Positions 27,787-55,552 of a stretch of DNA of 64,000 nucleotides are shown one piece after another. A model generated the notes under the pieces. That model did not search any database. It was not told where the DNA came from and worked only from the letters and a program-made list of their open reading frames with translations. Each line of letters starts with the position of its first letter. The first letter of the stretch is position 1. The DNA is from Thermoproteota archaeon (lineage in GTDB: Archaea > Thermoproteota > Nitrososphaeria > Nitrososphaerales > Nitrosopumilaceae). A program made the translations under genes and the position numbers. The stretch covers positions 472,380-536,379 of the forward strand of contig QQVN01000005.1 in assembly GCA_003352285.1 (NCBI GenBank). The letters run 5' to 3'.

Positions 27787-27800
27787 CTAATAATCCACTT

Positions 27801-28373: not shown

Positions 28374-28406
28374 ATTTAATGGCGGATAAGAGATTATATT
28401 AAATTT

Positions 28407-31876: not shown

Positions 31877-31884
31877 AAAAATAG

Positions 31885-34674: not shown

Positions 34675-35466
34675 ATGAAAAAACCAAATTTTTTTATTGT
34701 TGGCATGGCACGTGCTGGGACAACAACTTTAGCTAATTATCTAAACCAACATCCTGATGTATACATACCTCCACAAAAAGAAATTCACTATTTTATTAAA
34801 GAGCCACAGGATGGAATACAAGGTCCAAAAAATCTTAGTGACTATTTAGAAATTTTTAGGGACGCAGGGCCTGCTATTGCAATAGGTGATGCTTCTGTCA
34901 CATATTATTCAAGTCCATCGGCACCAAAACTAATTTATGATTTTAATTCTGAATCGAAAATCATCATCACAGTAAGGGATCCGGTTGACAGAGCTTATTC
35001 TGCATGGTTAGCTCGTTGGTCAATGGGTTATGAAAAACTTTCATTTCGTAATGCCATGAAACGAGATTATGAAAGTAATGAAATTTTTAATTATTATAAT
35101 GATGGTTTGACTTCACATATAGAAACTTGGAAAAAACAATTTTCGGAAGAAAATCTTAGAGTGGTATTTTTTAAAGATTGGATAAAAACTCCCCAAAAAA
35201 TAATTAATGAGTTATGGACATTTTTGAATATCAAGGAACATATAGAATTAAAGATTACACATGAAAATGAATTTGGGATGGCATCAAACCAAATCACAAG
35301 AACATTAATTCAGAACGATGCAAGCAGAAATGTTGTTAGAAAATTTATACCACTTTCTTTAAGACGTAAAGTTGGAAAAAAAATTCTTAATGATCATAAA
35401 AAACCAGAACTTTCCCAGGAAGATAAAGAATTTGTAAAGAAGTTATTTGAGAAAAACTTCAATTAA
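34675..35466 (+). CDS. PAPS-dependent sulfotransferase
   Basis: 263 residues. GMARAGTTTLANYLNQHPDV (about 9-28) is the 5'-phosphosulfate loop and IITVRDPVDRAYSAW the 3'-phosphate-binding motif. It probably sulfates a sugar of the surface glycan using PAPS. A homologous enzyme lies at 55566. Confidence 0.88.
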   Translation: MKKPNFFIVGMARAGTTTLANYLNQHPDVYIPPQKEIHYFIKEPQDGIQGPKNLSDYLEIFRDAGPAIAIGDASVTYYSSPSAPKLIYDFNSESKIIITVRDPVDRAYSAWLARWSMGYEKLSFRNAMKRDYESNEIFNYYNDGLTSHIETWKKQFSEENLRVVFFKDWIKTPQKIINELWTFLNIKEHIELKITHENEFGMASNQITRTLIQNDASRNVVRKFIPLSLRRKVGKKILNDHKKPELSQEDKEFVKKLFEKNFN

Positions 35467-35537: not shown

Positions 35538-36647
35538 ATGAAGTATTGCCAAAAATGCTTAATGCCAGATACAAGACCAGGTATTAAATTTCAAAATGGG
35601 GTTTGTACAGGATGTATTAATTTTGAAAAACAAAAAACAACAGATTGGAATTTGCGAAAAAACCAGCTTGAAAAATTATGTAACAGATATAGGAACAAAA
35701 ACAGTGATTATGATTGTGCAATAGCTATTTCTGGTGGAAAAGATTCACATTTTCAAGTATATTTTATAAAAGAGGTTATGAAGATGAATCCAGTATTATT
35801 AACTGTAGGTAATATTGATTCCACAGAAACTGGAAAATCAAACTTAGAGAACATTTCTGAAACTTTTGGATGTGATATTATTTCACACATTCCCAATAGA
35901 AATGTCTTGAAAAAAATTACAAAAATAACATTTGAGAGATATGGGTTTCCTACATGGTATGTTGATTCTTTAATCTATGCTTTCCCAATAAAAATGACCA
36001 TTAACTTAAATCTTGAATTATTAATCTATGGAGAAGATGTGAATTATACATACGGTGGTAAGTATGATGAAGAAACTCCTTCAGCGTTATTGCAACCAAA
36101 AAATGATGTGGTTAAACCAATTCATGATGAGCTTATTGATGAAGGAGTTGTCTCCAAAAAAGAATTGAATTCAAGCCGAATTCCAACTTTAGAATTTTGT
36201 AAACAACATAACTTTAATCCGATTTACTTAAGTTATTTCACACCATGGAATTCACATAGAAATTTTGAAATTGCTAAGCGCTGGGGTTTTAGACATTTAG
36301 GACATGAGTATAAAAAAGAAAACACTATTGAAGATTATAATTCAATTGATTCTATTACATACTTACTAAGTGAGTTTCTTAAATACACAAAATACGGTCA
36401 TGCGTCAGCTACACAAATGGCATCGAGATGGATTCGTTACGGAATGACAACTAGAGAAGAAATGATACCAATTGTAAAAAAACTTGATGGAGTACTTGAT
36501 CAAGGTATTGTAGATGGTTTTTGCTCTTTTGCAGATATTTCAGTTAAGAAATTTTATGAAATTTTAGATAAATGGTACAATCCAGAATTATTTGAACAAG
36601 ATCAGTATGGGTTATGGCATAAGAAATTTGAAGTAGGACAGAATTAA
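35538..36647 (+). CDS. N-acetyl sugar amidotransferase (WbpG/PseA-like)
   Basis: 369 residues. The N-terminus has C-x2-C...C-x2-C (YCQKCLMPD...CTGCINF) and then the PP-loop ISGGKDSHFQVYF (about 64-76) for ATP activation. WbpG/PseA-type enzymes turn an N-acetyl group into an acetamidino group on sugars such as pseudaminic or legionaminic acid. The ammonia-supplying HisH/HisF-like partners of WbpG are not in the window. It overlaps the convergent 624-aa gene by 4 bases. Confidence 0.88.
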   Translation: MKYCQKCLMPDTRPGIKFQNGVCTGCINFEKQKTTDWNLRKNQLEKLCNRYRNKNSDYDCAIAISGGKDSHFQVYFIKEVMKMNPVLLTVGNIDSTETGKSNLENISETFGCDIISHIPNRNVLKKITKITFERYGFPTWYVDSLIYAFPIKMTINLNLELLIYGEDVNYTYGGKYDEETPSALLQPKNDVVKPIHDELIDEGVVSKKELNSSRIPTLEFCKQHNFNPIYLSYFTPWNSHRNFEIAKRWGFRHLGHEYKKENTIEDYNSIDSITYLLSEFLKYTKYGHASATQMASRWIRYGMTTREEMIPIVKKLDGVLDQGIVDGFCSFADISVKKFYEILDKWYNPELFEQDQYGLWHKKFEVGQN

Positions 36648-38518
36648 TTAGCCAACAATTTTAAGATTTTAGCAAATTCTATTGATGACTTCCCAGGATT
36701 TGCTAAATATTCGAACACATGATTTTGTCCATTTTTAATAAGATTTTTTCTCAGTTTTTTATCAAAAAGAAAATTATGGATTTTTTCATCAACAATATCT
36801 ATATCCTTTAATGATAAAATCGCATTTTTTTTAACACAATCAAATTGATATATTTCATTTTTTATTACAATATTCATAGTTGGGATATTTAGTATTAAGG
36901 ATTCCAAGATGGATGTCGATAATCCAACTCCATGAGGTTCTATGTGAATAACTGAGTCAACGTTTTTTAAATGATCAAGGATAGAAGACATATGATAAAT
37001 TTTGATATTTTTATTAATTTGAAGGAAAATATTTTTTATAAAATTATTTGACGAATCCTGAGTTGGATGAAGCTTTACTATAACATCAATATGATATTTG
37101 TTAAGTATGGACATTAAATTTTTAATAATTTTATCATATCTTAGATAAGTATCGGTGTCTGTTAACCCACTATAATTAACGATAGGAGAGGGAATTATCA
37201 AAACTCTATTTTTAATAGATAAATTACGTTTTGTCCTAAAAAATATGTCATGCCTAGGATTTCCAGTAAGAAGAATTCTATTTTCACTAATTTTTCTACA
37301 ATCAGTAAGATAATCTTTTTCTATTTTTCCCCAGACTCCAATTTTATCCATAAATACATCATACATGTGTAAAACATCATATCTTGAAACTTCATCAACA
37401 AAATTAGCATAACCATGTTCTAATAATATATTAGAAATACGATTATTATTCAATTTTAATATTGCATTTTCAGTTTCGCCTGTAGCATATAACGATACAA
37501 TACAATTGAAATGAAATTTATTTAGTAAACCATTGGAAATTATAATTAATTTTACATATTCCTCTAATCGTTTTTGATATACTCTTTTCAAAGTTTCCTC
37601 CAGAGTTTGCCAAAAATGACAGTCATCAATTGTAAACATTTCATCAAAAAATTCTGTATTTGTCCAAAATTTCTCTAATTTCATTTTTAAATTATTAACA
37701 GTTTCATTAAATAGTTTTTTTTGTGGAAGGAAATATGACTCGTTAATTAATTTACAATCATATTTTTTAATAATTGAAATTGCTTTTGAATTCCAAATTG
37801 CAGACTTCCTTCTATTCAATAAAACAGGAGTAATATTTAATTTATTTAATTCATTTAACAGATCTTCATATTTTATTGGATCAAATTCTAAAAATAAAAT
37901 TTTTTTTTGATGCTCTTTATAATTAAACAAATTATAATTTACTGCGATGATTTTTTCATACCATGTTTTTAATTTCATTAATGTATTACGACTTAAATTG
38001 AAAGTTAGTGGTATGGGACCAATTTTATAATGTATTTGATACTTGTCAAAAAATAGTGAATTATAATTTGATTTTTGAAATAAATCTAAATGAATACTGC
38101 TAGAAAACGGAATAGAGCGTATAAATCTTCCAATAGTTTCAGATGCCAAAATTCTTGTGGGATTATTTTTTTTGATTATTTCTTTTATAGTCAACAATTT
38201 TGTTATTGTGTCAAGTAATAATTGTTGTAATTCATTAGAATCAAATATTTCAATTATGTTTAAATTTTGTAATGTTAATTCAGAAAGATGAGGATGATTC
38301 CTATACCATGTTTTTAATGAAATAGTTGTATCGAAGGCTTTTATCTTATCTTCTTTTGATAGTAATAATTCTCCAATTTCATGCTGAATGTTCATTTCAT
38401 TAAGTTTATTATGAGATTGAAAATTCAAAGTAAAAATTTTATCTGCTTTGTAAAAATGGTTTTTTGAATTTAGCTGTTCTATATCTAAAAAATCTTCAAC
38501 GATAATTAGCGTAGTCAT
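36644..38518 (-). CDS. Large GT-B-like putative glycosyltransferase
   Basis: 624 residues, no signal or membrane helix. The C-terminal half resembles CDP-glycerol/capsule-type transferases: LLTGNPRHDIFF, VIVKLHPTQ (an HP motif) and HIEPHGVGLSTSILESLILN. The N-terminal 300 residues are helical and unmatched. An HP motif is also found in bacterial sialyltransferases, and no other CMP-nonulosonate transferase is evident here, so it is a candidate, but no more than that. Confidence 0.5.
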   Translation of the reverse strand: MTTLIIVEDFLDIEQLNSKNHFYKADKIFTLNFQSHNKLNEMNIQHEIGELLLSKEDKIKAFDTTISLKTWYRNHPHLSELTLQNLNIIEIFDSNELQQLLLDTITKLLTIKEIIKKNNPTRILASETIGRFIRSIPFSSSIHLDLFQKSNYNSLFFDKYQIHYKIGPIPLTFNLSRNTLMKLKTWYEKIIAVNYNLFNYKEHQKKILFLEFDPIKYEDLLNELNKLNITPVLLNRRKSAIWNSKAISIIKKYDCKLINESYFLPQKKLFNETVNNLKMKLEKFWTNTEFFDEMFTIDDCHFWQTLEETLKRVYQKRLEEYVKLIIISNGLLNKFHFNCIVSLYATGETENAILKLNNNRISNILLEHGYANFVDEVSRYDVLHMYDVFMDKIGVWGKIEKDYLTDCRKISENRILLTGNPRHDIFFRTKRNLSIKNRVLIIPSPIVNYSGLTDTDTYLRYDKIIKNLMSILNKYHIDVIVKLHPTQDSSNNFIKNIFLQINKNIKIYHMSSILDHLKNVDSVIHIEPHGVGLSTSILESLILNIPTMNIVIKNEIYQFDCVKKNAILSLKDIDIVDEKIHNFLFDKKLRKNLIKNGQNHVFEYLANPGKSSIEFAKILKLLAN

Positions 38519-38570: not shown

Positions 38571-39938
38571 TTAGATATATCCTAATTTTCTTAGTTCAGA
38601 TTCTATTTTTTCGGCTTCCTTTACGTTGATTGAATTATCACGTGTGAAAACATAATTTTTTGTAATATCTTGCAATATTTTTTCCAATTCAGAAACCTTT
38701 TCTAGATTAAATCGAGCAAGATTATTATTCTCATTTGGGTCGTCCCTTAAATCATAAAGATGAACTAATTTATTGGGATTAAATCGATCACGGAAATATT
38801 TGAAATCTGGCGTACGAATACCGATGACATTATTTGATTTGAGATCGAGTAACGGTTCACTTTCCATAAATGCTATCAGATCATCTGTTTTTTCACCGCT
38901 AATGAATGGAATTAAACTGCGACCATCGATTTCATCATCACGATTTGGTAGACCAAGAATATGAGAAATTGTAGGGCAAATATCGATACTTCGTACTTGT
39001 TGAGAAATAATTTTTCCTTCTTGAATACCTGGACCTACAAGTAGGAGTGGGATTCGGAATAAATCATCATAAACAAATCTATCAGTATCCCCTCGCTGAT
39101 TTAATAAATTACGTTTTTCATGAGGAGATAGATTCAGCTTTTCAATTTTCTTAATTTTCCTTTTTTTTCTAATCTTTTCCAGAATAACAAAAATTTTTGT
39201 ACGTAAGGGAATTAGGACTTTAGGTGTTCGACTTCCAAGAAACGTTGAATATTTTTGTATTCCGGAATTGGATCCAAAGTTTATCTCGTTATTATCAAAA
39301 TAAAGTTCTTTATTATAAGATCCATGATCAGCGGTAATCACGACTAATGTGTTTTTTAAATCTATACACTTTATGATCTTCCCAATCCAGAAATCAATTG
39401 CAGATATTTGTCGATCGTATTTTGTCGTTCCAAACTTTTTATTATCAAATTCTGATGGAATTGAAATAGGAAAATGTAAATCCATACAATGTATGTAAAA
39501 GAACCAAGGATTATTCATATTTCCAGATTGTAGTTTTTCAATTATCCGTTTTCCTGCACCGTCAACCAATGTAGGATGACGAGCGTATGATTTATCAGAA
39601 TTTTCAAAGTTAGGTAATAATCCAATGGCCATAGCAACTTGTGGAAAATATCCGTAAAATTTGTAATTCAGATCACCAAAAATTTGAAAGTATGTTTTTA
39701 CATCTTTACGAATTTTGTTAAATTTATGTGAACGAACTCCGCTTTTAATTGGGAACAAACCAGTAAATGTACTAGCTTCAGAAACCAAAGTAGCATCAGA
39801 TGAGGAAATAGCCTGTTTAAAATAAGTACCACTTTTTATTAAATAATCAAGATTTGGAGTTACTGATGTTTTGTTTATTCCAATAAATTTATCTGCTCTA
39901 AAGGAATCAATAACTAAAAATAAAATATTTGGGTTCAT
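38571..39938 (-). CDS. Sulfatase-fold hydrolase with Thr nucleophile (second copy)
   Basis: 455 residues. FLVIDSFRADKF holds metal-ligand Asp11, VVITADHGSYNKE the second metal site, and GRSLIPFISGEK plus FYLHCMDLH-like segments match sulfatases (HCMDLHFP). At the nucleophile position, ten residues before the Gly of FTG (60), is Thr50. Thus it shares the Cys-to-Thr change of the other copy. Possible phospho- or sulfo-ester enzyme for glycan or lipid; divergent from nothing, it lies alone 52 bases below the 624-aa gene start. Confidence 0.8.
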   Translation of the reverse strand: MNPNILFLVIDSFRADKFIGINKTSVTPNLDYLIKSGTYFKQAISSSDATLVSEASTFTGLFPIKSGVRSHKFNKIRKDVKTYFQIFGDLNYKFYGYFPQVAMAIGLLPNFENSDKSYARHPTLVDGAGKRIIEKLQSGNMNNPWFFYIHCMDLHFPISIPSEFDNKKFGTTKYDRQISAIDFWIGKIIKCIDLKNTLVVITADHGSYNKELYFDNNEINFGSNSGIQKYSTFLGSRTPKVLIPLRTKIFVILEKIRKKRKIKKIEKLNLSPHEKRNLLNQRGDTDRFVYDDLFRIPLLLVGPGIQEGKIISQQVRSIDICPTISHILGLPNRDDEIDGRSLIPFISGEKTDDLIAFMESEPLLDLKSNNVIGIRTPDFKYFRDRFNPNKLVHLYDLRDDPNENNNLARFNLEKVSELEKILQDITKNYVFTRDNSINVKEAEKIESELRKLGYI

Positions 39939-39994: not shown

Positions 39995-40438
39995 TTATTT
40001 CCATTTGTTAAAATCATAGTCTGTAAATTGTGTATTTATCATCTCATTATCATTTGGTCTCCATGCGACATCAGCAAGTGTTAAAACACGAGAGATATTT
40101 TTTGATAAATTTATGTGTGCAGATGCAAAGTTTTTAGGAACAAAGACCATTACAGGTTCATCCTCACTTGATTCAATTTCTAAATATGTATTATTTTTGT
40201 CTTTAATAATGAAAATTACTCTTCCGTGTATGCAAGTAAAAAAACTATTTCTTTGTGTGTGAATATGTGGGCCTTTTATTTCTCCAGGATTAACAGAACT
40301 AACATAAACCATTTTTGGATCATGTGAGATGATTTTATCCCAATCTCTCCATATTACAGTTAAAGAGCCGTTAACATGACTATCAGAAACATCTTTTGTC
40401 GAATATTTTTCTAATTTTTTTGAAAAGGGTTCAATCAT
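39995..40438 (-). CDS. RmlC-like cupin (dTDP-sugar epimerase/isomerase type)
   Basis: 147 residues. GEIKGPHIHTQRNSFFTCIHG gives a His-x-His and nearby His, and FVPKNFASAHINLS the second barrel motif. The general shape is that of dTDP-4-dehydrorhamnose 3,5-epimerase relatives and of FdtA-type keto-isomerases. It is divergent from rmlB at 40520, fitting use of dTDP-4-keto-6-deoxyglucose. Which reaction it does is open. Confidence 0.7.
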   Translation of the reverse strand: MIEPFSKKLEKYSTKDVSDSHVNGSLTVIWRDWDKIISHDPKMVYVSSVNPGEIKGPHIHTQRNSFFTCIHGRVIFIIKDKNNTYLEIESSEDEPVMVFVPKNFASAHINLSKNISRVLTLADVAWRPNDNEMINTQFTDYDFNKWK

Positions 40439-40519: not shown

Positions 40520-41527
40520 ATGAAAAAATTTACAGGTGTATTGAAGATTTTAGTGACAGGAGGATTAGGATTTATTGGAAGTAATTTTATCAATAAAATA
40601 TTAGAAGAGTTTTCTGAACATCAAGTAGTAAATGTAGATTCCGAATTTTATGGTTCAAACCAGAAAAATGTACAAAAAGTCGCCCATTCAAAAAAATATA
40701 GTTATTTCAAAGGAAATATTTGCAATCACGATCTGATGAAAAAATTGATTAACGGTTGTGACATTATTGTTAATTTTGCAGCAGAATCATTTGTTGATAG
40801 AAGTATTGCAAATGCTAAACCATTTTTTGATTCAAATACATATGGAGTATTTAACATATTAGAGATTATAAAGAATACAGAAAAGAGATTTATTCAAATA
40901 TCAACTGATGAAGTGTTCGGTAGCTTACAAAGTGGCACAGCCAATGAGAATTCGGTGTTTAATCCATCAAGTCCGTATGCAGCAACAAAAGCATCTGCTG
41001 AATTATTGATTAAGTCATATGTCAAGACATACAATTGTGATTGCTTGATTACTAGATGTACAAATAACTATGGTCCACAACAATATCCAGAGAAACTAAT
41101 TCCAAAGGTTATTCTATTAGCAAAGCAGGAAAAAAAAATTCCAATATATGGAAATGGTAGAAACGTTAGAGACTGGATTTATGTAAATGATCATTGTAAT
41201 GCCATTATAGATGTCATGAAAAATGGAAATAGTGGTGAGACATATAATATATCTGCAAATAATGAAGTAGATAATTTAGCAATTATTAAAAATATTTTAT
41301 CAATAATGAACAAATCAGAAGATTTGATTGAATTTGTTGAAGATAGGCCAGGGCATGATTTTCGATACAGTATGAATTCAGAAAAAATTAGAAAAAATCT
41401 AGGATGGAAGGAATTTACCTCATTAGAAAAAGGTTTAGCATTAACGGTTAATTGGTATCTAACAAATGTTGAATGGTGGAAGGAATTAGGACTTAATGTA
41501 TTGACTTCTTCACCTTGGAAAACTTGA
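40520..41527 (+). CDS. rmlB: dTDP-glucose 4,6-dehydratase
   Basis: 335 residues. VTGGLGFIGSNFINKIL is the NAD loop; ISTDEVFGSL contains the catalytic Thr-Asp-Glu triad, YAATKASAE the Tyr-Lys pair and NNYGPQQYPEKLIP the sugar loop. It makes dTDP-4-keto-6-deoxyglucose. ATG at 40520 is used; a TTG 21 bases later could also serve. Operon with rmlA (22-base gap). Confidence 0.93.
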   Translation: MKKFTGVLKILVTGGLGFIGSNFINKILEEFSEHQVVNVDSEFYGSNQKNVQKVAHSKKYSYFKGNICNHDLMKKLINGCDIIVNFAAESFVDRSIANAKPFFDSNTYGVFNILEIIKNTEKRFIQISTDEVFGSLQSGTANENSVFNPSSPYAATKASAELLIKSYVKTYNCDCLITRCTNNYGPQQYPEKLIPKVILLAKQEKKIPIYGNGRNVRDWIYVNDHCNAIIDVMKNGNSGETYNISANNEVDNLAIIKNILSIMNKSEDLIEFVEDRPGHDFRYSMNSEKIRKNLGWKEFTSLEKGLALTVNWYLTNVEWWKELGLNVLTSSPWKT

Positions 41528-41549: not shown

Positions 41550-42614
41550 ATGAAAGGCATAATATTACATGGGGGACATGGAACCAGACTTAGACCATTA
41601 ACCCATACAGGACCTAAACAATTACTCCCGATTGCTAATAAGCCCATGTCTCAATATTGTTTAGAATCTCTTAGGGATGCAGGTATTATAGATGTAGCCA
41701 TAATAATTGGAGGGAATGGTTCTGAAAAAGTTAAAGAGTATTACGGTAGTGGAGAAAAATTTGGTGTAAAAATTAGTTATATTGAGCAAGATTTGCCTAG
41801 GGGAATTGCTCATGCAGTAGGATTATGTGAAAGTTTTGTTAGCAAAGATAAATTCATAGTTTTTTTGGGAGATAATTTAATCCAGAAAAAAATTAACAGG
41901 CTTGTTGATGAGTTTTCAAAATCAGATAATGATGCTTCTATTTTATTATGTGAGGTAGACAATCCTACAAGATTCGGAATTGCAGATGTAAATGATGGGA
42001 GGATTAAAAAAATAATTGAAAAACCAAAGAATCCTCCATCAAATCTTGCTGTTACGGGGATTTATTTTTTAACTGAATCAATTTTTCAAGTAATTAAAAA
42101 ATTAAAACCATCATGGAGAAATGAATTTGAGATAACAGATGCCCTGCAATTGTTGCTTGATGAGGGAAAAAAAATTTCGTACAATATTGTAACAGACTAT
42201 TGGAAGGATACTGGAACTCCAGAAGATATTATTCATGCAAATAAGACTGTATTAAATAACTTAGAACCGTATTTTTATGGAATTAAAGAGGAAGGTGTAA
42301 AGTTATCTGGAAAAATTTTTGTTGGCAAAAATACCGTCATTAAAAAAGATACTCAAATTGAAGGTCCTGTTATAGTAGGTGATGATTGTGAGATATCTAA
42401 TGCAAGGATTGGTCCAAATACAAGCATAGGTGATAAAACAAAAATTTCAAAGTGTAGTATTAGGGACACTATAGTAATGTCAAATTGCGATATAGATAGT
42501 GAATTGCAAATTAGGAATAGCATTATCGCAAAAAATTCTTCCATTAAAACAAAAACTGAGAAAGATGGAGAGAAACAGTTTCTTTTAGGAGAAGGAACAA
42601 AAATATTATTTTAA
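41550..42614 (+). CDS. rmlA: Glucose-1-phosphate thymidylyltransferase, long form
   Basis: 354 residues. GGHGTRLRPLTHTGPKQLLP (6-25) is the nucleotide loop, LGDNLI the metal site and IEKPKNPPSN the sugar pocket. The last 110 residues form hexapeptide repeats of a left-handed beta-helix, as in archaeal long-form enzymes (some also carry acetyltransferase activity). It supplies dTDP-glucose to RmlB. Confidence 0.9.
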   Translation: MKGIILHGGHGTRLRPLTHTGPKQLLPIANKPMSQYCLESLRDAGIIDVAIIIGGNGSEKVKEYYGSGEKFGVKISYIEQDLPRGIAHAVGLCESFVSKDKFIVFLGDNLIQKKINRLVDEFSKSDNDASILLCEVDNPTRFGIADVNDGRIKKIIEKPKNPPSNLAVTGIYFLTESIFQVIKKLKPSWRNEFEITDALQLLLDEGKKISYNIVTDYWKDTGTPEDIIHANKTVLNNLEPYFYGIKEEGVKLSGKIFVGKNTVIKKDTQIEGPVIVGDDCEISNARIGPNTSIGDKTKISKCSIRDTIVMSNCDIDSELQIRNSIIAKNSSIKTKTEKDGEKQFLLGEGTKILF

Positions 42615-42671: not shown

Positions 42672-43715
42672 ATGAATCCAAAAATAAGTATTATTATTTT
42701 AAATTATAATGCAGGGGACTTACTACTAAATTGTGTTGAATCTGTCTTTAAAACTAACTATGAAAATTATGAGGTGATAGTTGTTGACAATCTATCGATT
42801 GATAAAAGTCACATAAGATGTAAAGAAGAATTTCCCCAGATCTGCCTAATTGAAAATAAAAAAAATTACGGATATTGTGAAGGAAATAACATAGGCATAA
42901 GAAATGCAAAAGGAGATTTCATCGTCATATTAAATCCAGATACAATTGTGGATGAAAATTGGTTAAATGAGCTTATAACCGCATATGATAAATTTGGAAG
43001 TGGATTATATCAGCCAAAAATTCTATCACTATATGAAAAAGATATTCTTCAAAGCACAGGAAATTTGCTTCATATTTTTGGATTTGGTTTTGCAAGAGAT
43101 AAAGGGATTAAGGATTTTGATAAAAGAAAGCAAGTAGAAAAAATAGGATATGCTTCAGGAACATGTCTATTTACATCTGCCAAAATTCTTGATGAATTAG
43201 ATCTATTTGATGAATTCCTTTTCTTGTATCATGATGACTTAGATTTGGGGTGGAGAGCAGCACAGTTAGGAATACCCTCATTTTATGTTCCTAAATCAAT
43301 GGTTTTTCATGCTGAAAGTTATTCATTAAAATGGAGTGCAAGAAAATTTTATTGGTTAGAAAGAAATAGAAAATATTGTCTTCTTACAAGATATTCTAAA
43401 GAAACATATAAGAAAATTAGACTGGCATTAATTTTAGTAGAAGTGTTAGTGTGGGCATATTATTGCTCTAAAGGATTTTTCATAACAAAATTGAAAGTAG
43501 AGATATTTATTTTTAAAAATAAAAAAATTATAGCAGAAAAATATTTTGAAATTGAAAAAAAGAAAATCATATCAGATAAAGAATTAATAAAAAACTTTCC
43601 CGATGAAATTTTTGTGCCTGAAAATGTTATGCCAGGATTATTAAATAAGGGATTCAATTCCATTATTTCAAAATTAAGTAGAATTGCAAAAAAATCAGTA
43701 CTTGTAGATGATTAA
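42672..43715 (+). CDS. Family 2 glycosyltransferase (rhamnosyltransferase-like)
   Basis: 347 residues. ISIIILNYNAGDLLLNCVESV and VVDNLSIDKS start the GT-A fold, LNPDTIVDENWL is the DxD-like metal site, and FLYHDDLDLGWRAAQLG is the catalytic segment typical of rhamnosyltransferases. It follows rmlA and probably uses a dTDP-deoxysugar. It overlaps the convergent acpS stop by 4 bases. Confidence 0.85.
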   Translation: MNPKISIIILNYNAGDLLLNCVESVFKTNYENYEVIVVDNLSIDKSHIRCKEEFPQICLIENKKNYGYCEGNNIGIRNAKGDFIVILNPDTIVDENWLNELITAYDKFGSGLYQPKILSLYEKDILQSTGNLLHIFGFGFARDKGIKDFDKRKQVEKIGYASGTCLFTSAKILDELDLFDEFLFLYHDDLDLGWRAAQLGIPSFYVPKSMVFHAESYSLKWSARKFYWLERNRKYCLLTRYSKETYKKIRLALILVEVLVWAYYCSKGFFITKLKVEIFIFKNKKIIAEKYFEIEKKKIISDKELIKNFPDEIFVPENVMPGLLNKGFNSIISKLSRIAKKSVLVDD

Positions 43716-44068
43716 TTTATTTTTTCAGAAATTACTATGCCTAAAGCAATCCCGCTATCATGACTAATGGAGCATAATAATCTGTATTTTTTATGATACT
43801 TGTCTGTCAATCTTATACAGGGTTTAGAATTTTTATGATATGTCTCAATTTCTAGAAAAGTTATAGGTTCCTTGATTGATTTTTTGACTGCTTCCTTTAA
43901 GGCAAACTTTCCTGCAAATCTTTGGTATGGATCTTTAAATTTTAAACAATATTTTATTTCGGAGGGCGAGAATAGCTTACGATAAAATGATGATTTTTTT
44001 TCATAAGGTTGTTTTTGGAAACGTGAAACATTAATTATATCAATTCCGATTCCAAAATTTTCAATCAT
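43712..44068 (-). CDS. acpS: Holo-acyl-carrier-protein synthase (AcpS)
   Basis: 118 residues. GIGIDIINVSRF with Asp10 and FAGKFALKEAVKK with Glu59 are the two magnesium/CoA motifs, with LFSPSEIKYCL between them. AcpS transfers 4'-phosphopantetheine from CoA to the Ser of an acyl carrier protein, here most likely the one encoded at 45237. Last gene of the five-gene FkbH operon, 2 bases after the SDR gene. Archaea normally lack ACP and AcpS, so its presence is notable. Confidence 0.9.
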   Translation of the reverse strand: MIENFGIGIDIINVSRFQKQPYEKKSSFYRKLFSPSEIKYCLKFKDPYQRFAGKFALKEAVKKSIKEPITFLEIETYHKNSKPCIRLTDKYHKKYRLLCSISHDSGIALGIVISEKIN

Positions 44069-44070
44069 GA

Positions 44071-44817
44071 TTAATGCATAGTTTGACCAGATCCTACAAT
44101 TATGTTTTCGCCAGAAATATTATCAGAAAGTTTTGAGCTCAAAAAAAGAGCTACTGGTGCAATATCATTAGAATCAGCTAATTTACCAGAAGGATTTTGA
44201 CTAGAAATAATTTTCTTTAATGCATTTGGTAAATTTTCAGTCAGAGGAGTGTCCATCATAGGAGGAGAAATCGAGTTAATTGTTATTCCAAACCGAATCA
44301 ATTCACCAGCTAGTGTTTTTGTTAATCCTAAAAGCGAATATTTTCCAACAATATAATCAGACATATTATTAGGAGGTTTACCAATAACACCAGTTGTTAG
44401 AATAGTGATTACTTTACCATATTTTTGCTCCTTCATTGAAGGTAAAATTTCTAAAAGCAAGGTAAAGAATGAACGGCATTGTAGATCAAACTGCCTTTGA
44501 AAATCATTCCAAGTTAAGTCGGTAATATTTTTCATCGATAGGGGAAGGCTCACAGAATGTATGAATCCAGATATCGGAAAATCTTTTACTAATGTAGGAA
44601 TTTTATCTTTGATTTCAGATTCATCCATTAAATCAATTTGAAGGGTATTTATTTTTGATTTTAAATTCTGATTTTTCGTTAAAAGTGTATCAATATTATT
44701 CCGATTTTTATTATAGAGTAAAACCAAATGTGCTCCATTTTGTAAAAGTAATTCAGATATAGCAATTCCAACAGAGCTGTTTCCACCAGAAATCAAAAAT
44801 CTTTTTCCATCAAACAT
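44071..44817 (-). CDS. FabG-like ketoreductase (SDR)
   Basis: 248 residues. ISGGNSSVGIAISELL is the NADP loop, ILTTG stands at the catalytic Ser/Thr strand and DYIVGKYSLLG is the YxxxK pair; GSGQTMH closes the C-terminus as in FabG-type enzymes. By context it should reduce a 3-oxoacyl-ACP or the reverse. It overlaps the MaoC gene by 8 bases and is followed by acpS. Confidence 0.85.
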   Translation of the reverse strand: MFDGKRFLISGGNSSVGIAISELLLQNGAHLVLLYNKNRNNIDTLLTKNQNLKSKINTLQIDLMDESEIKDKIPTLVKDFPISGFIHSVSLPLSMKNITDLTWNDFQRQFDLQCRSFFTLLLEILPSMKEQKYGKVITILTTGVIGKPPNNMSDYIVGKYSLLGLTKTLAGELIRFGITINSISPPMMDTPLTENLPNALKKIISSQNPSGKLADSNDIAPVALFLSSKLSDNISGENIIVGSGQTMH

Positions 44818-45259
44818 GGTTTCTCACTATTACTTTGGCATTTCCTTCTACAACTATTTCTCCCGAATCTTTTTTTATTATTGTTTTTAAAGTTAAAATT
44901 TTGCTAGCGTCACTTTTATCTAATATTTCCCCTTCTATTGTGATTTTATCATTTATGTAACAAGGATTTTTAAAATTAAGAGATTGAGAAAAATATAAAG
45001 CATGAATTCCTGGTAGATACATTCCAACCAATCTGGAAAAAAATGACGATAATAGCATTCCATGACATACTCTACCAGCAAAACCATTTTGTTTTGCATA
45101 TTCGGATTTCATATGTAGTGGATTAAAATCCCCAGATATTTCAGCAAATTGATTAATCAGGGACTCGGTAATTAAAACATCAAATTGTTCTTTTTGGCCT
45201 ATAGCTAATTCATTTAGTGTAAACTTTTTGTAAGTTTCATTCATCCAAGGAGACACCAC
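44810..45259 (-). CDS. MaoC-like (R)-hydratase
   Basis: 149 residues, single hot-dog fold. The hydratase-2 motif is FAEISGDFNPLHM with Asp44 and His49, followed by GFAGRVCHGMLLSSF. It adds water to, or removes it from, an enoyl thioester. The start may be the ATG at 45244, which would shorten the overlap with the ACP gene from 23 to 8 bases. Substrate is probably carried by the ACP encoded just upstream. Confidence 0.85.
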   Translation of the reverse strand: MVSPWMNETYKKFTLNELAIGQKEQFDVLITESLINQFAEISGDFNPLHMKSEYAKQNGFAGRVCHGMLLSSFFSRLVGMYLPGIHALYFSQSLNFKNPCYINDKITIEGEILDKSDASKILTLKTIIKKDSGEIVVEGNAKVIVRNHV

Positions 45260-45476
45260 GGTTTTTTAAATGTCGTTTTATGTCTGCTACTGAATGCGTA
45301 TCTGTCATTTCTGCAACAGTAAACTTTAGATTAAATGCACTCTCTAATTCATCAATTAAGACAAGACTGTTAAATGAATCCCATTTTTCAATTGTATCAG
45401 GACTCGATTCGTCATTAATCTCTGAAATTGGTACTGAAAATACCTGTGATAAAATTTCGAATAATTTTTTAGACAT
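45237..45476 (-). CDS. Acyl carrier protein
   Basis: 79 residues, four-helix carrier. Ser34 in KWDSFNSLVLIDELESAF is the phosphopantetheine site; it aligns without gaps to the DSL helix of bacterial ACPs, and the WDS form is typical of ACPs that serve FkbH proteins. Start and FkbH stop overlap by one base (TAATG type), so the two are coupled. Holo-ACP would carry the acyl group made by this operon. Confidence 0.92.
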   Translation of the reverse strand: MSKKLFEILSQVFSVPISEINDESSPDTIEKWDSFNSLVLIDELESAFNLKFTVAEMTDTHSVADIKRHLKNRGVSLDE

Positions 45477-47227
45477 TATTGTAAAGACATCTCCAAATGT
45501 TTTGGAATTTTTATCTCATTATCTAAAGAATAAATCCAAAAATCTTCTTCTTTAGTAAAACCATAATTTTTTAGAAAATCTTCTGCTGGTTTATTTTTTT
45601 TGGTTGGAATAAATTTACCTTTGATTTTTTTTACTCCTTGCGTTTTAGCTGTCATAAGAATATGGCTTAGTATTCCATCCTCAACACGTCGTCCCATAAC
45701 TCTACAAGACAGCAAGAATGTATCCAGTACCCATTCGTCATTATTTTCTTTATTTACAATATAAACACCCGTAATTCCATTATCACCAAATTTATCAATA
45801 ATTTGAGCACATCCTACAAGATAATTTTCTGATTTTGACATTTGCCCAATTTCTTCTTCTTGATATCGTTTTGTTGTTAGATTAAATTGATTTGTTTTCA
45901 TAGTAAGCTGTGAAATTCTTGGTATGGTAAATTCATCTGGATGTAAAAATTTGATTTTAATGTCAAGTTGTTTTAAAAAATCATCAAGATTTGTAGTGGA
46001 TTGGCGAAGTTCATTCCGAAGTCTTTGTTCAGAATACATTTTACCACGATTGAGATCATCTGACGTTATTTTAAGTAAATTGAAATCATTCATCATGGAT
46101 AAAATTTTTGAAAATTGAGCTGCATCTGGGGGTAAATCTACAGTTAACACATCTGGAATCATTGATTTCATTAGTTCACGATTTGTGGGATCATCATCAA
46201 AGAACACAATGCTGTCTAAACCAATATTTAGCTCATTAGAAATTTCTTTCATATTACTGACTTTATCATTCCAATTGATTTTCATTGATGAAAAATTATT
46301 TTCTTTGAGTACCATGTATGGATGTTCTTTTATAACTTTAATAGCATCATCAAAATTATTTTTACTGTTAATTGCTAGGATTATTCCACGTTGATGAAAT
46401 GATAATAAAATATTTTGAAATTCAACAAACATTCTACCTTTCTGATCAGGACCTAATTGTATTCCTTCAAATCCATCCTCGCCGATAATTCCTCCCCATA
46501 AGGTATTATCTAAATCTAGAACAATACATTTTTTATTCAAACCCATTACCGCTTTGATGAAGCCCATTAATTCATGTGCGAGATATGGAATGTGATCTAA
46601 TGAAATCTTAATGTCGCCTACAAAAAATTGGTGATAATCAAAAACATTTTTTTCACCATAAAAATTAAAAAATCTATTCATATCAAACAAATATAGAAAA
46701 TCATTTTCTTTTGCAAAATTTTTAAGTCTAGAATTTATATCAAAAATCATTTCTTGCAAACCATAATTCATTTTCATTTCAAAAATCCCATAGGGAGAAA
46801 ATGTTGGAATCGTGAAATTTGATAAGAATAATTTAGAGTTTGAATTATGTTTGAAATTTTCTATTAGATTACAAAGTTCATCAAATTTATGATTTATAAT
46901 TTCTTTTCTTTCATCCTCAGAAACAGTATACGGAAAATAAAAATAATTTCCTAACAAGTTTCTGACATCTAAAAGTAAAAATGTAATATTTGGAGAAAAT
47001 TTGTACAAATTACTTGTATGATCTAAAATCTCCTGCTGATATTGGCCATAAGGTCCAACATAGGTAGAACAGCCAATTTTAACCTCTGAGCACTTAACGC
47101 GTAATGTTTCATCCAATCCATTAAGTGTAAAACTACCTAAAATTGCTATTCGTAATTTTTTCTCAAAAGAATTTGGAATAATGCTTTTTGATTTATTCAT
47201 ATAATATGACAATTTTTTTTCATTCAT
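45476..47227 (-). CDS. FkbH-type HAD-IIIC protein
   Basis: 583 residues in three parts: an N-terminal SGNH-like region (about 25-225), the HAD domain beginning CIVLDLDNTLWGG with nucleophile Asp238 and Asp240, FFDDDPTNRELM as the second acid motif, and a C-terminal GNAT-like part (QLTMKTNQFNLTTKRY...FLLSCRVMGRR). FkbH proteins take 1,3-bisphosphoglycerate and load a glyceryl unit on an ACP. TATA box AAATTAAA at 47251-47258 (seen on plus) is centred 27 bases from the ATG. Confidence 0.9.
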   Translation of the reverse strand: MNEKKLSYYMNKSKSIIPNSFEKKLRIAILGSFTLNGLDETLRVKCSEVKIGCSTYVGPYGQYQQEILDHTSNLYKFSPNITFLLLDVRNLLGNYFYFPYTVSEDERKEIINHKFDELCNLIENFKHNSNSKLFLSNFTIPTFSPYGIFEMKMNYGLQEMIFDINSRLKNFAKENDFLYLFDMNRFFNFYGEKNVFDYHQFFVGDIKISLDHIPYLAHELMGFIKAVMGLNKKCIVLDLDNTLWGGIIGEDGFEGIQLGPDQKGRMFVEFQNILLSFHQRGIILAINSKNNFDDAIKVIKEHPYMVLKENNFSSMKINWNDKVSNMKEISNELNIGLDSIVFFDDDPTNRELMKSMIPDVLTVDLPPDAAQFSKILSMMNDFNLLKITSDDLNRGKMYSEQRLRNELRQSTTNLDDFLKQLDIKIKFLHPDEFTIPRISQLTMKTNQFNLTTKRYQEEEIGQMSKSENYLVGCAQIIDKFGDNGITGVYIVNKENNDEWVLDTFLLSCRVMGRRVEDGILSHILMTAKTQGVKKIKGKFIPTKKNKPAEDFLKNYGFTKEEDFWIYSLDNEIKIPKHLEMSLQ

Positions 47228-47250
47228 GTAATTTCGTCGGAGTTTTATCT

Positions 47251-47258
47251 AAATTAAA
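47251..47258 (-). promoter_or_regulatory. TATA box of the FkbH-ACP operon
   Basis: Minus-strand TTTAATTT is centred 27 bases from ATG 47227. It is the only promoter seen for the five genes down to 43712. Confidence 0.5.
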
Positions 47259-47348: not shown

Positions 47349-47888
47349 ATGGAAAAAAAAGAATTCAATGATGCTTTATCAATGAATGAGGCAGAAATAA
47401 TGGAATATTATGGTCTAAAAGGAGGTTTTGGAAGATTTCGCCTTAAATTAAAAATCCTAAGATCGTGGATTTTACATTCATTAGCTTATTCATCCCCAGT
47501 TTCCAGTTTTGTTGAAAAAATGCAACGTATGAGAGGCGTTCAAATTGGAGAAAATTGTCATTTTTGTCCATATGTACAACTAGATTTAATCTATCCAAGT
47601 TTAATTAAAATCTGTGATAATGTAACTCTGGGTTCAAATTGTATGATATTTGCACATTCCAACCCAACGGCAAATTTATTTTTAAAAAAGAATCACTATC
47701 CAAGAAAAGTTGAAAATGTGACAATTGAATCAGGAGTCGTTCTAAATCCAGGAGTGATTGTGCTTGCAGGAGTAAAAATAGGATGTAATTCAATAATTTC
47801 ACCAGGTAGTGTAGTAACAGAAGATATTCCAGAATATTGTATTGCAGTAGGCAATCCTGCAAGAGTAATTAAAAAAATAAACCATTAA
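47349..47888 (+). CDS. Left-handed beta-helix O-acyltransferase
   Basis: 179 residues. After a helical start, hexapeptide repeats (VQIGENCHF, ITIE-type turns in VTIESGVVLNPGVIVLAGVKIGCNSIISPGSV split over coils) form a LbH domain ending AVGNPARVIKKI. FAHSNP holds the catalytic His. These enzymes move an acetyl or larger acyl group to a sugar. It is divergent from the FkbH operon and is the nearest candidate to use its ACP-bound product. Confidence 0.85.
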   Translation: MEKKEFNDALSMNEAEIMEYYGLKGGFGRFRLKLKILRSWILHSLAYSSPVSSFVEKMQRMRGVQIGENCHFCPYVQLDLIYPSLIKICDNVTLGSNCMIFAHSNPTANLFLKKNHYPRKVENVTIESGVVLNPGVIVLAGVKIGCNSIISPGSVVTEDIPEYCIAVGNPARVIKKINH

Positions 47889-47932: not shown

Positions 47933-48763
47933 ATGAATATTTTAGGAATAGATTTTGAAGATTGGTATCATCCAGAATTAATACAACCTGTGATTAATTC
48001 TAGAAAAAAAGTTCCTAAAGTAATTAATGGAATTGATAAAATTCTGGAATTATTACGAAGGTGCAATACTTTTGCAACATTTTTTGTGGTAGGAGAGTTA
48101 TTGGAGTATAAAATTGAGATTTTGGATAAAATTCTAGAAAACGGACATGAAATAGCCTTTCATACTATGCATCACACTAGAATTGATTCAGAAAATTTTA
48201 AGGAAAAATTTTATGATGAATTGAAAGTATTTTCTGATTTAACAAATAAAAAATCAAAAGGTTTTCGTGCGCCAACATTTTCTTTAAATGAAAAAAGCTC
48301 ATGGGTTATTGATGCTTTGAATGAATTTAATTATGAATATGACAGTAGTATTGTTCCTGTTAAAACAAGTATGTACGGAATACCCGATGCAGATTACAAA
48401 CCATATAAAATTTCAAGTTCGTCAATTGAAAAAAATGATCCAAATGGAAAAATAATGGAATTTCCTCTTTTAACTACCAAACTCTTAGGTAAAAAAATAC
48501 CTGCTGCAGGTGGCTTCTATTTACGAATATTACCTAAAATCATTACAAAAAATGCTATCAAAAATGCTGAGAATGAAGAAATTCCAGCTACATTTTATAT
48601 TCATTCATGGGAGCTTACACCAGAATACATGCCTAAAATTAAATTAAATATGAAGGACCATTTTGTAACATATCATAATTTAGAAAAAACTCCAAGAAGA
48701 ATGGAAGAAATTCTTAAGACATTTAGTTTTACCTCATTTGAAAGATTTATCCAGAAAATGTAG
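47933..48763 (+). CDS. Polysaccharide deacetylase (NodB homology)
   Basis: 276 residues. DFEDWYHPE at 7-15 gives the catalytic and metal Asp, FHTMHHTRID the metal His pair, FRAPTFSLNEKSSW the arginine loop and YIHSWEL the C-terminal His. A DUF3473-like tail (RMEEILKTFSF) is present. It removes N- or O-acetyl groups from glycan sugars. It overlaps the convergent epimerase gene by 17 bases. Confidence 0.88.
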   Translation: MNILGIDFEDWYHPELIQPVINSRKKVPKVINGIDKILELLRRCNTFATFFVVGELLEYKIEILDKILENGHEIAFHTMHHTRIDSENFKEKFYDELKVFSDLTNKKSKGFRAPTFSLNEKSSWVIDALNEFNYEYDSSIVPVKTSMYGIPDADYKPYKISSSSIEKNDPNGKIMEFPLLTTKLLGKKIPAAGGFYLRILPKIITKNAIKNAENEEIPATFYIHSWELTPEYMPKIKLNMKDHFVTYHNLEKTPRRMEEILKTFSFTSFERFIQKM

Positions 48764-49688
48764 TATTGTTTTTGAAGTATTCAATTGTTTTTTCTATACC
48801 ATCTTTAACAGATATTTTTGGTTTCCATCCAAGAGATTTTAATTTTGAATTATCAACAATGAAATTTCCAACATCGGTTTTTTTGGTATATGGTGGAGGA
48901 TCGATGTATTTTACATCAACATCAGTTAGTTGGTGAAGTAAATTTCCTAATTGATAAAACCAGGTTTTTGTATTTGATGAAATCCAGTATAGATTTCCAG
49001 ACCTGCCTTTTTTTAATACAGTTTTGATTCCTGAGACAACATCATCAACATAGATTAAATCGCGAAAAAATTTACCACTAAAATAAATTTGTATTTTATT
49101 ATTAAGATATGCTTGGTGAATCAAAAAATTAACTGCGTTTTTGTTAGCAGTTATCTGTTCTCTAGGTCCAAAAGAATTAGTAATTCTAAATATTTTTGTC
49201 TTTAAACCATACACATCGTGATATATTTTACAATAATGTTCACTCAAGAGTCTATTAGCACCGTAGATTGTAGTGGGTTGACAAGGAGATTCTTCATTAA
49301 TAGGTAATTTCTTTGGCTTACCAACGACTACAAAAGTACTACCTAAAATAAATTCACAATTCAAATTTAGCTTCCTCATGGTTTCAAGCATAAACAAAGT
49401 GGATTTAGAATTAATATCTACATCATAAAGTGGATTTTCAAAAGATTGTGAATGAGATGTTTGGCCAGCCAAATGAATGATTACTTCTGGGGAATTTTTT
49501 TTTATGATTTTTTCAACAGTGGAAAAATTTGTGATATCAATTTTTTCAATATTGATTTTAGAAGGAGCTAAGATGTTTTGTATTTTTGAAGTTGATTTTG
49601 TAATAATCGTTAAATCATTATTTTTTATTAATTTATCACATAGATGACTTCCAATAAATCCCAATCCCCCAGTTATCAGAATCTTCAA
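48747..49688 (-). CDS. NAD-dependent sugar epimerase/dehydratase
   Basis: 313 residues. ITGGLGFIGSHLCDKLI is the NAD loop, LGSTFVVVG the catalytic Ser/Thr strand, and IYGANRLLSEHYC stands at the YxxxK site, where Lys is replaced by Arg. GWKPKISVKDGIEKTIEYF is the typical C-terminus. Probably modifies a nucleotide sugar; the Lys-to-Arg change may lower or alter activity. Upstream of it on the same strand are a methyltransferase and a glycosyltransferase. Confidence 0.82.
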   Translation of the reverse strand: MKILITGGLGFIGSHLCDKLIKNNDLTIITKSTSKIQNILAPSKINIEKIDITNFSTVEKIIKKNSPEVIIHLAGQTSHSQSFENPLYDVDINSKSTLFMLETMRKLNLNCEFILGSTFVVVGKPKKLPINEESPCQPTTIYGANRLLSEHYCKIYHDVYGLKTKIFRITNSFGPREQITANKNAVNFLIHQAYLNNKIQIYFSGKFFRDLIYVDDVVSGIKTVLKKGRSGNLYWISSNTKTWFYQLGNLLHQLTDVDVKYIDPPPYTKKTDVGNFIVDNSKLKSLGWKPKISVKDGIEKTIEYFKNNTTFSG

Positions 49689-53983: not shown

Positions 53984-55552
53984 ATGTTAAAGAATGGTGT
54001 AGAATCAGATTTTACAATTAAGAAATCAATTATTGGATTATCAATTATAGTAATCATAGCATTAGCAGTCAGATTGTTTTATTATAATCCCGAAATCCCT
54101 CCAACCTCTGATGCATTAGCCTATTTTTATTATGCAATAGACACTAGCATCAGTGGACATTTACCCACAGATTATTCACCTGCAAATAATGGTTGGCCAG
54201 CATTTTTAGGCATGGTTTTTTCTACAATACATTTTTCGAGCATTACATCATACATGCAGTTGCAATTTGTGTCTACAATTGTAATCTCTACATTAACTAT
54301 AATTCCAACTTTTGTGTTATGTAATAAGTTAGTAGGAAGGAGGATTGCATTGGTTGGGGCTTCAATAATTGCCTTTGAGCCAAGATTAATCCAGAATTCA
54401 TTACTTGGGATCTCAGACACACTATACATTTTTCTTGTAGCATCGATATTTGCTTTATTTCTTAACAATGATAAGCGAATCATATTTATCTCATTTGGAA
54501 TTGCAGCTCTTGCATCCATAGTAAGAGCGGAAGGAATTTTTGTTTTTTTTGCAATTTCTGTAATGTTTTTAATTAGATTTAGAAATGAAGGAAAAATTAT
54601 TGTTCCAAAATTTCTAATTGCTCTAAGTATCTTTTCTCTAGTAATACTTCCAATGGCAGCGTATAAAATCGACATACATGGAGATGATAGGATTTTTGGC
54701 AGAGCCGCAGAATCTATTTCTGCTTCTTATTATGTTGAAGAAAAGTCCCCTATACTTACTGGATTAGAAAACTTTCCAAAATTTCTAATTTGGGATATGA
54801 TTCCCGTCTTTATTTTTTTAATGCCTATTGGAGTTTACTATCTTTTCAAAAAAGTAGAATATAAAAAATTAACAATAATTTTTGGAGTAATTTTTTGTTC
54901 TATTCCGGCTTTTTATGTATATACGATTCCTATTCCTGAAACGCGATATTTCTTTTTTTTGTATCCTTTGTTTTCAGTAGTATCAGTTCTTTTTGTAGAA
55001 AATATTGTTGGTAAGGTTAAACAAAAAGATTTGATTACTTGGATGATTATTGCAGGAGTACTAACAGGTTCTATTTTATTTAATTTTTGGAACATGATAG
55101 ATTATGAATATGAATCAGAATCATTACTAGTAGCAAATACAATTGTCAGCATAGCAGGAGGAATTAATCAGTATGAACCAGAACACAAGTATGTTACTGT
55201 TGTGGATGTAATAAATAGATGGAATGAAATGGAGTCAATTATTATCGATCAAGATAGAATTGAAGGAGAAACGTTAAGAAAGTCTTTTCCTTACTCTGTT
55301 AAAATGATTTCAACGGATGGGTATAACTCATTAAATAATTTTATTTTGGAGAACCAAGATAAGGGGTTGACTCATTTGATAATAGATGAAAATCCAAATC
55401 GTCCAGATTTTCTAAAAGATGTGTTCTATAATGAAACAAAATATTCTTATCTAGAAAAAGTATATGATTCAAATGATGAATTACTAAGATATAAAGCAAA
55501 AATTTTCAAGATTAATTATGAATTAATAGATAAATCATTCCAACAAAATTGA
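53984..55552 (+). CDS. GT39/ArnT-like membrane glycosyltransferase
   Basis: 522 residues: about 11 membrane helices and a C-terminal soluble domain of about 150 residues. PPTSDALAYFYY (about 38-49) carries the external Asp that PMT/ArnT enzymes use, and FEPRLIQNSLLGISDTLYIF resembles the second loop. It transfers a sugar from a polyprenyl-phosphate donor outside the cell. Operon with the flippase and the sulfotransferase downstream (13-base gap). Confidence 0.82.
   Translation: MLKNGVESDFTIKKSIIGLSIIVIIALAVRLFYYNPEIPPTSDALAYFYYAIDTSISGHLPTDYSPANNGWPAFLGMVFSTIHFSSITSYMQLQFVSTIVISTLTIIPTFVLCNKLVGRRIALVGASIIAFEPRLIQNSLLGISDTLYIFLVASIFALFLNNDKRIIFISFGIAALASIVRAEGIFVFFAISVMFLIRFRNEGKIIVPKFLIALSIFSLVILPMAAYKIDIHGDDRIFGRAAESISASYYVEEKSPILTGLENFPKFLIWDMIPVFIFLMPIGVYYLFKKVEYKKLTIIFGVIFCSIPAFYVYTIPIPETRYFFFLYPLFSVVSVLFVENIVGKVKQKDLITWMIIAGVLTGSILFNFWNMIDYEYESESLLVANTIVSIAGGINQYEPEHKYVTVVDVINRWNEMESIIIDQDRIEGETLRKSFPYSVKMISTDGYNSLNNFILENQDKGLTHLIIDENPNRPDFLKDVFYNETKYSYLEKVYDSNDELLRYKAKIFKINYELIDKSFQQN

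Follow-up and report, generated by a model that had tools for sequence, protein, structure and literature searches.

The window, a 64,000-nucleotide stretch of a Nitrosopumilaceae genome (GenBank assembly GCA_003352285.1, contig QQVN01000005.1, positions 472,380 to 536,379), carries five minus-strand open reading frames (ORFs) at 43712–47227. These encode an FkbH-family loading enzyme (FkbH), an acyl carrier protein (ACP), a MaoC-like dehydratase, a short-chain dehydrogenase/reductase (SDR) and a holo-ACP synthase (AcpS). Neighbouring genes overlap or lie 2 nt apart: the overlap TAATG joins the FkbH stop to the ACP start, the MaoC ORF begins within the ACP gene and shares 8 nt with the SDR gene, and a 2 nt gap separates SDR from AcpS. 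Relatives of MaoC align from about residue 6, which makes the ATG at 45244 its probable true start. The 3′ end of AcpS converges on a glycosyltransferase gene with a 4-nt overlap. A first-pass annotation had described five overlapping or touching genes on this strand behind one TATA box. Coordinates, Pfam/NCBIfam families and the order kept in relatives bear out the genes; the TATA box was not confirmed, the region upstream of FkbH being AT-rich and showing, by eye, no motif common to 14 orthologue upstream regions. The annotation had suggested looking for the same gene order in other ammonia-oxidising archaea. It is present in many relatives, mostly without the SDR, and chance is therefore excluded.

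Family assignments are strong for most of the encoded proteins. The FkbH domain model TIGR01686 matches at 2e-91 (306.5 bits against a curated cut-off of 146.65), PF21211 matches as well, and Asp238 and Asp240 of the HAD domain, together with Cys508, are invariant in 94/94 relatives. For the N-terminal and HAD portion of FkbH, an AlphaFold2 model (pLDDT 86.8) finds a match in 3slr; GNAT folds are among its further matches. The curated cut-off, the HAD aspartates, the invariant cysteine and an ACP encoded alongside all place the protein in the FkbH family. The PP-binding match of the ACP is weaker (3.7e-5; 24 bits against a cut-off of 20.8); the WDSF motif is present, and serine occupies position 34 in 91/92 relatives. 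AcpS scores above the PF01648 cut-off, and the Asp10, Lys58 and Glu59 typical of AcpS-type phosphopantetheinyl transferases occur in 34/34 sequences. MaoC retains Asp44 and His49 and finds its best solved match in 1iq6, an R-specific enoyl-CoA hydratase (5e-23), while the SDR carries Tyr155-x3-Lys159 and resembles FabG and acetoacetyl-CoA reductases. The full carrier-protein set that the annotation had listed (loader, WDS-motif ACP, dehydratase, reductase and arming enzyme) thus stands by family and signature residues, apart from a threonine in the SDR considered below.

Features of the carrier-protein operon and its conserved sugar-gene neighbours (window coordinates)
Feature	Position	Strand	Family match and comment
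FkbH, 583 aa	45476..47227	-	FkbH_N / HAD-IIIC phosphatase / C-terminal GNAT-like acyltransferase; predicted 1,3-bisphosphoglycerate to glyceryl-ACP loader
Codon of FkbH Cys508 (SCR motif)	45704..45706	-	Candidate acyl-accepting cysteine (putative role); 94/94 conserved
ACP, 79 aa	45237..45476	-	PF00550; sole ACP found in genome
Codon of ACP Ser34 (WDSF)	45375..45377	-	Predicted phosphopantetheine site
MaoC-like single hot-dog dehydratase, about 144–149 aa	44810..45259	-	PF01575 1.3e-19; genome's only MaoC
SDR / FabG-like reductase, 248 aa	44071..44817	-	PF13561 (adh_short_C2) 1.7e-37
AcpS holo-ACP synthase, 118 aa	43712..44068	-	PF01648 1.4e-11, TIGR00556; sole genome match
Hexapeptide (LbH) acyltransferase	47349..47888	+	PF00132; divergent neighbour; predicted from linkage as acyl-ACP to sugar transferase
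Polysaccharide deacetylase (DUF3473, XrtA-type)	47933..48763	+	PF11959/PF01522, TIGR03006; conserved neighbour in 25/33 archaeal loci
NAD-dependent sugar epimerase/dehydratase	48747..49688	-	PF01370/PF16363; conserved neighbour, synteny
Family 2 glycosyltransferase	42672..43715	+	PF00535 3.7e-25; convergent conserved neighbour, synteny
RmlA-like nucleotidyltransferase with C-terminal LbH	41550..42614	+	PF00483 5e-62; synteny
RmlB-like NDP-glucose 4,6-dehydratase	40520..41527	+	PF16363 2e-74; synteny
FdtA-like dTDP-4-keto-6-deoxyhexose 3,4-ketoisomerase (cupin)	39995..40438	-	PF05523 5e-18; synteny

Carrier-protein inventory of the genome

The source genome (1.69 Mb, 99.6% complete) belongs to the phylum Nitrososphaerota, with Nitrosotenuis, Nitrosarchaeum and Nitrosopelagicus as named close relatives. 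Genome-wide it encodes one ACP, one AcpS and one MaoC, as well as a phosphoglycerate kinase (PGK). ACP machinery is reported to be missing in most archaea (PMC3533463), in keeping with the annotation's premise that archaea generally lack ACP-based chemistry. Here the machinery would serve a peripheral job only, and the set is self-contained in that it includes the enzyme that activates the ACP.

No ketosynthase of the fatty acid synthase (FAS) or polyketide synthase (PKS) type was found genome-wide by profile, a search that did not extend to malonyl-CoA:ACP transacylase. The two ketosynthase-profile matches are thiolases, judged from their sequences (GHPxGATG motif). A crude motif search of the large ORFs of loci L035–L130 likewise yielded no ketosynthase motif, and the family is not among the 25 commonest Pfam families of 130 neighbours. 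Both negative claims of the annotation, that a PKS/FAS-type ketosynthase is missing and that the operon does not make fatty acids, agree with these searches and with the single ACP and AcpS. A fatty acid or polyketide pathway with a ketosynthase encoded away from the operon would account for an ACP, a MaoC, a FabG-like SDR and an AcpS, all FAS-type components, and for the plasmid FkbH genes that adjoin PKS or FabH genes (others adjoin MBOAT genes), but the thiolase-only matches and the neighbourhood searches make it very improbable.

Three specific candidates were tried and rejected: (i) a type II fatty acid synthase or polyketide role, for want of a FAS/PKS ketosynthase in the genome or the neighbourhoods; (ii) a methoxymalonyl-ACP pathway, the Pfam families of the neighbours including no adjacent pair of dehydrogenases with an O-methyltransferase; (iii) a tetronate pathway, a FabH-like enzyme being absent among the neighbours (Pfam) and from the genome ketosynthase scan, in which no FabH-specific profile was run.

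Distribution and exchangeable parts

Full-length FkbH occurs in 16 of the 398 sampled genomes of the phylum, source genome included. Within the Nitrosopumilaceae, AcpS is detectable in 15 sampled genomes, and in 13 of these the FkbH operon is also present, whether intact or broken; in one further case (G068) FkbH is present and AcpS was seen by tblastn only. The common form is FkbH-ACP-MaoC-AcpS without the SDR, and the glycosyltransferase and hexapeptide acyltransferase that flank it are usually those seen here. Candidatus Nitrosotenuis chungbukensis MY2, which is in culture, has this MaoC-only form. In a more distant family and in Asgard and Bathyarchaeal loci, the arrangement is AcpS-FkbH-ACP with an acyltransferase and a deacetylase. 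Asgard archaea, Bathyarchaeia and numerous bacteria also have FkbH-ACP glycan cassettes. The comparison covered 94 FkbH loci (33 archaeal and 61 bacterial). In-frame stops or frameshifts interrupt the operon in two genomes, G233 (L017/L049) and G382 (L018/L050); these are pseudogenes or draft-assembly errors.

An ACP accompanies FkbH in 32 of the 33 archaeal loci and in 57 of the 61 bacterial ones. AcpS is found in 28/33 archaeal loci, against 4/61 bacterial ones. In archaea the cassette seems to come with its own arming enzyme, while in bacteria the housekeeping enzyme presumably suffices. Relatives of the hexapeptide acyltransferase lie within 4.5 kb of FkbH in 29 of the 33 archaeal loci. 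The annotation had treated the five genes as a unit, and they do form an operon here; the conserved unit is instead FkbH-ACP-AcpS with the adjacent hexapeptide acyltransferase, a gene beyond the interval that the annotation covered; MaoC is usual in this unit and the SDR optional.

Both loader and tailoring enzymes can be exchanged. A MaoC lies near FkbH in 40/94 loci and a VOC/Glyoxalase_4 protein in 22/94; none of the 94 has both. Within one family the VOC protein occupies the exact place of MaoC between ACP and AcpS (L041, L046, L058), and the window FkbH groups in the tree with one of these VOC-form loci (L046; SH-aLRT 91). The VOC form is found in Nitrosarchaeum Baikal-G1, among others. 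The VOC protein resembles methylmalonyl-CoA epimerase, hence our guess that it might act as a glyceryl-ACP epimerase. In two relatives (L145:9376-12011, genome G089; L146:9341-11964, genome G150) an AMP-binding ligase replaces FkbH, while glycosyltransferase, AcpS, ACP and hexapeptide enzyme are kept. The ACP of these genomes is probably loaded with a different acid, and since the hexapeptide enzyme persists through the swap of loader, the ACP is most likely its acyl donor.

MaoC and SDR were labelled with profiles built from clean seeds, since bacterial fusions merge the two families. Among archaea, MaoC has a nearby SDR here and in two genomes with orthologues, G108 and G233, broken in the latter. 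Bacterial glycan clusters often encode MaoC and SDR as a single fusion next to FkbH-ACP; the 394-aa fusion of L112, for example, holds MaoC at 12–114 and SDR at 157–390. The two are adjacent and unfused in L070, L084, L089 and L099. This recurrent pairing suggests that both enzymes probably act together.

MBOAT or AAC(3)-type transferases go with FkbH-ACP in other loci. A Sinorhizobium meliloti plasmid locus (L131, 815–5849) holds an MBOAT gene, a gene annotated as a TonB receptor, an ACP and FkbH; the organism is genetically tractable, so that the FkbH-ACP-MBOAT form could conveniently be studied there. G239 carries a second ACP beside an MBOAT and an SDR 45% identical to that of the window (L148:4010-7732), preceded by a 311-aa protein without family assignment.

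A predicted route to an acylated sugar

1,3-Bisphosphoglycerate is the source from which FkbH enzymes load glyceryl onto an ACP (PMC7489565), and glyceryl is quite probably the first unit loaded here. That the acyl-ACP then serves glycan acylation is about equally probable. The annotation had proposed that a short glyceryl-derived or hydroxyacyl group is built on the ACP and passed to a sugar; with a single ACP and AcpS in the genome and a conserved sugar block around them, this is the best-supported reading. Its broad acyl class holds, and we would narrow the identity to lactyl-ACP, with lactyl as a somewhat favoured end product in this genome.

All that follows on reactions, acceptor sugar and stereochemistry is predicted. 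AcpS would place phosphopantetheine on Ser34 of the ACP. FkbH would then take D-1,3-bisphosphoglycerate supplied by the genome's PGK, remove phosphate and load D-glyceryl onto the ACP. MaoC could dehydrate this unit (C2-H, C3-OH) to an enolpyruvyl group that tautomerises to pyruvyl-ACP, and the SDR would reduce the 2-keto group to give lactyl-ACP. From there the adjacent hexapeptide acyltransferase may acylate a dTDP-6-deoxy(amino)sugar, the product of the RmlA, RmlB and FdtA enzymes encoded nearby, and glycosyltransferases would incorporate the acylated sugar into a glycan. As summarised in PMC4765723, citing He 2014 (10.1002/anie.201406602), bifunctional dehydratase-ketoreductase proteins convert glyceryl-S-ACP to lactyl-S-ACP in the FR901464 and lankacidin pathways. 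This precedent, in which dehydration gives enolpyruvyl/pyruvyl and reduction gives lactyl, explains the presence of a dehydratase and a ketoreductase without a ketosynthase. Taken whole, a stand-alone carrier-protein route to a small acyl substituent, lactyl, of a surface glycan has slightly better than even chances.

Several observations weigh against this route. The SDR has threonine where serine is usual, and the closest solved relatives of MaoC, the R-specific enoyl-CoA hydratases, act on 3-hydroxyacyl chains. Hexapeptide transferases often use acetyl-CoA. Most Nitrosopumilaceae relatives have MaoC without the SDR, and their other SDRs, encoded elsewhere, are distant (19–29% identity); the product there may therefore be pyruvyl or another acyl group, or another reductase may be used. 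The mutual exclusion of MaoC and VOC speaks for the route, but its Fisher p = 6e-7 ignores phylogeny; on the tree (17 changes for MaoC, 15 for VOC) independent pairs fall 0 same versus 3–5 opposite, too few to be significant.

The missing SDRs favour another scheme, in which glyceryl-ACP or pyruvyl-ACP is itself the donor, MaoC and SDR act only in part or on a different substrate, and the sugar receives glyceryl or pyruvyl. Three distant-family loci and several Asgard loci have AcpS-FkbH-ACP and an acyltransferase with neither MaoC nor SDR, as this scheme would have it. In this genome, however, both enzymes are present, position marks the only MaoC as dedicated, and the pair recurs, fused or adjacent, beside FkbH-ACP in bacteria; direct donation is unlikely. 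The relatives of MaoC raise a different possibility, namely a 3-hydroxybutyryl-type chain on the ACP, with MaoC hydrating crotonyl or the SDR reducing acetoacetyl, and FkbH loading something other than glyceryl. Crotonyl is available from the carbon-fixation cycle, both enzymes resemble catalysts of such steps (R-specific enoyl-CoA hydratases; FabG/acetoacetyl-CoA reductases), and bacterial O-antigens are known to carry hydroxybutyryl amino sugars. We consider this C4 route quite unlikely, however: FkbH is the constant partner, and its characterised members load glyceryl from 1,3-bisphosphoglycerate (PMC7489565); VOC epimerase-like proteins take the place of MaoC in relatives; and no ketosynthase or acyltransferase bringing C4 units onto the ACP was found.

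The transferase, too, could be another enzyme. A membrane MBOAT O-acyltransferase might use the acyl-ACP on an exported glycan, much as DltB does with DltC, in place of the hexapeptide enzyme. MBOAT genes stand beside FkbH-ACP in L059, L099, L102, L103, L111, L120 and S. meliloti, the second G239 locus combines ACP, SDR and MBOAT, and one MBOAT lies about 10 kb beyond the window (L147). No MBOAT adjoins the operon itself, however, and the hexapeptide enzyme does so in nearly all archaeal loci and persists after the loader swap, which renders a role for MBOAT here unlikely.

Returning to the lactyl route, we suggest that it may be one form of a modular, ketosynthase-free decoration of glycans by acyl-ACP in archaea and bacteria, a generalisation to which we give even odds. 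Carrier and transferase would be constant, and loader (FkbH or AMP-ligase) and tailoring exchangeable. Some forms would have no tailoring; in others a VOC epimerase would yield the opposite glyceryl enantiomer, MaoC by itself pyruvyl, and MaoC with SDR lactyl. Archaeal acquirers would have brought their own AcpS because no other ACP chemistry exists there.

The cassette is embedded in a block of dTDP-sugar, glycosyltransferase and acyltransferase genes kept among relatives, and DegT aminotransferase, methyltransferase and MBOAT genes follow within about 11 kb beyond the window end. The same sugar island encodes an ATP sulfurylase, two sulfatase-family proteins and two sulfotransferases (26725–29558, 34675–35466, 38571–39938, 55566–56405), from which a sulfated glycan is a possible product of this archaeon. 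NeuB, UDP-GlcNAc 2-epimerase and CMP-sugar synthetase-like genes at 29713–32586 form a nonulosonic (sialic-type) acid pathway. At 60138–61894 a C-methyltransferase (Methyltransf_13/14) adjoins a dTDP-sugar 3,5-epimerase; a branched-chain dTDP sugar is probable. Large proteins without a Pfam match (E 0.001) lie at 36644–38518 and 53984–55552 and have relatives in other archaeal sugar islands.

Comparison with known systems

Cryo-EM shows the glycan that coats N. maritimus, a marine ammonia oxidiser, without resolving its chemistry (PMC11153153), and glycoproteomics of two species found strongly different glycosylation (PMC12153357). The operon predicts exact mass shifts on such a glycan. Many glycan loci of bacteria hold the same cassette, which suggests that it is a common yet little-described origin of lactyl, glyceryl or pyruvyl groups on sugars. 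We found no description of FkbH in archaea or in glycan loci in the open literature, which omits most subscription journals. The parts and the core chemistry are already known from polyketide starters; what appears new is this chemistry in a ketosynthase-free archaeal glycan pathway that includes an AcpS of its own and in which loader and tailoring enzymes can be exchanged.

The closest parallels are the FR901464 and lankacidin starters, in which FkbH-type glyceryl loading is likewise followed by a dehydratase and a ketoreductase, bifunctional there as in the fusions of bacterial glycan loci. Here, in contrast, MaoC and SDR are separate, no polyketide synthase is fed, and the surroundings are those of a dTDP-sugar/glycosyltransferase locus that also holds an acyltransferase and an AcpS of its own; the likeness is one of gene content. 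The tetronate operons (tetromadurin mad7/mad8) and the FK520 methoxymalonyl-ACP pathway share an FkbH and a stand-alone ACP that make glyceryl-ACP from 1,3-bisphosphoglycerate, but the adjacent FabH-like enzyme, the two dehydrogenases with O-methyltransferase, and the PKS are all missing here. In D-alanylation (Dlt) and in the Vibrio cholerae O1 tetronate system (rfbKLMNO), a small acid on a carrier protein is passed to a cell-surface glycan, the loader being of the AMP-ligase type. Carrier-to-glycan transfer would be alike here; the loader is FkbH, with an AMP-ligase in the two archaeal relatives. The hexapeptide N-acyltransferases FdtC, QdtC and PglD, which act on dTDP- or UDP-amino sugars, use acetyl-CoA. 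The hexapeptide enzyme of the window shares their LbH fold family and FdtA/RmlA/RmlB-type neighbours, whereas its linkage suggests an acyl-ACP donor.

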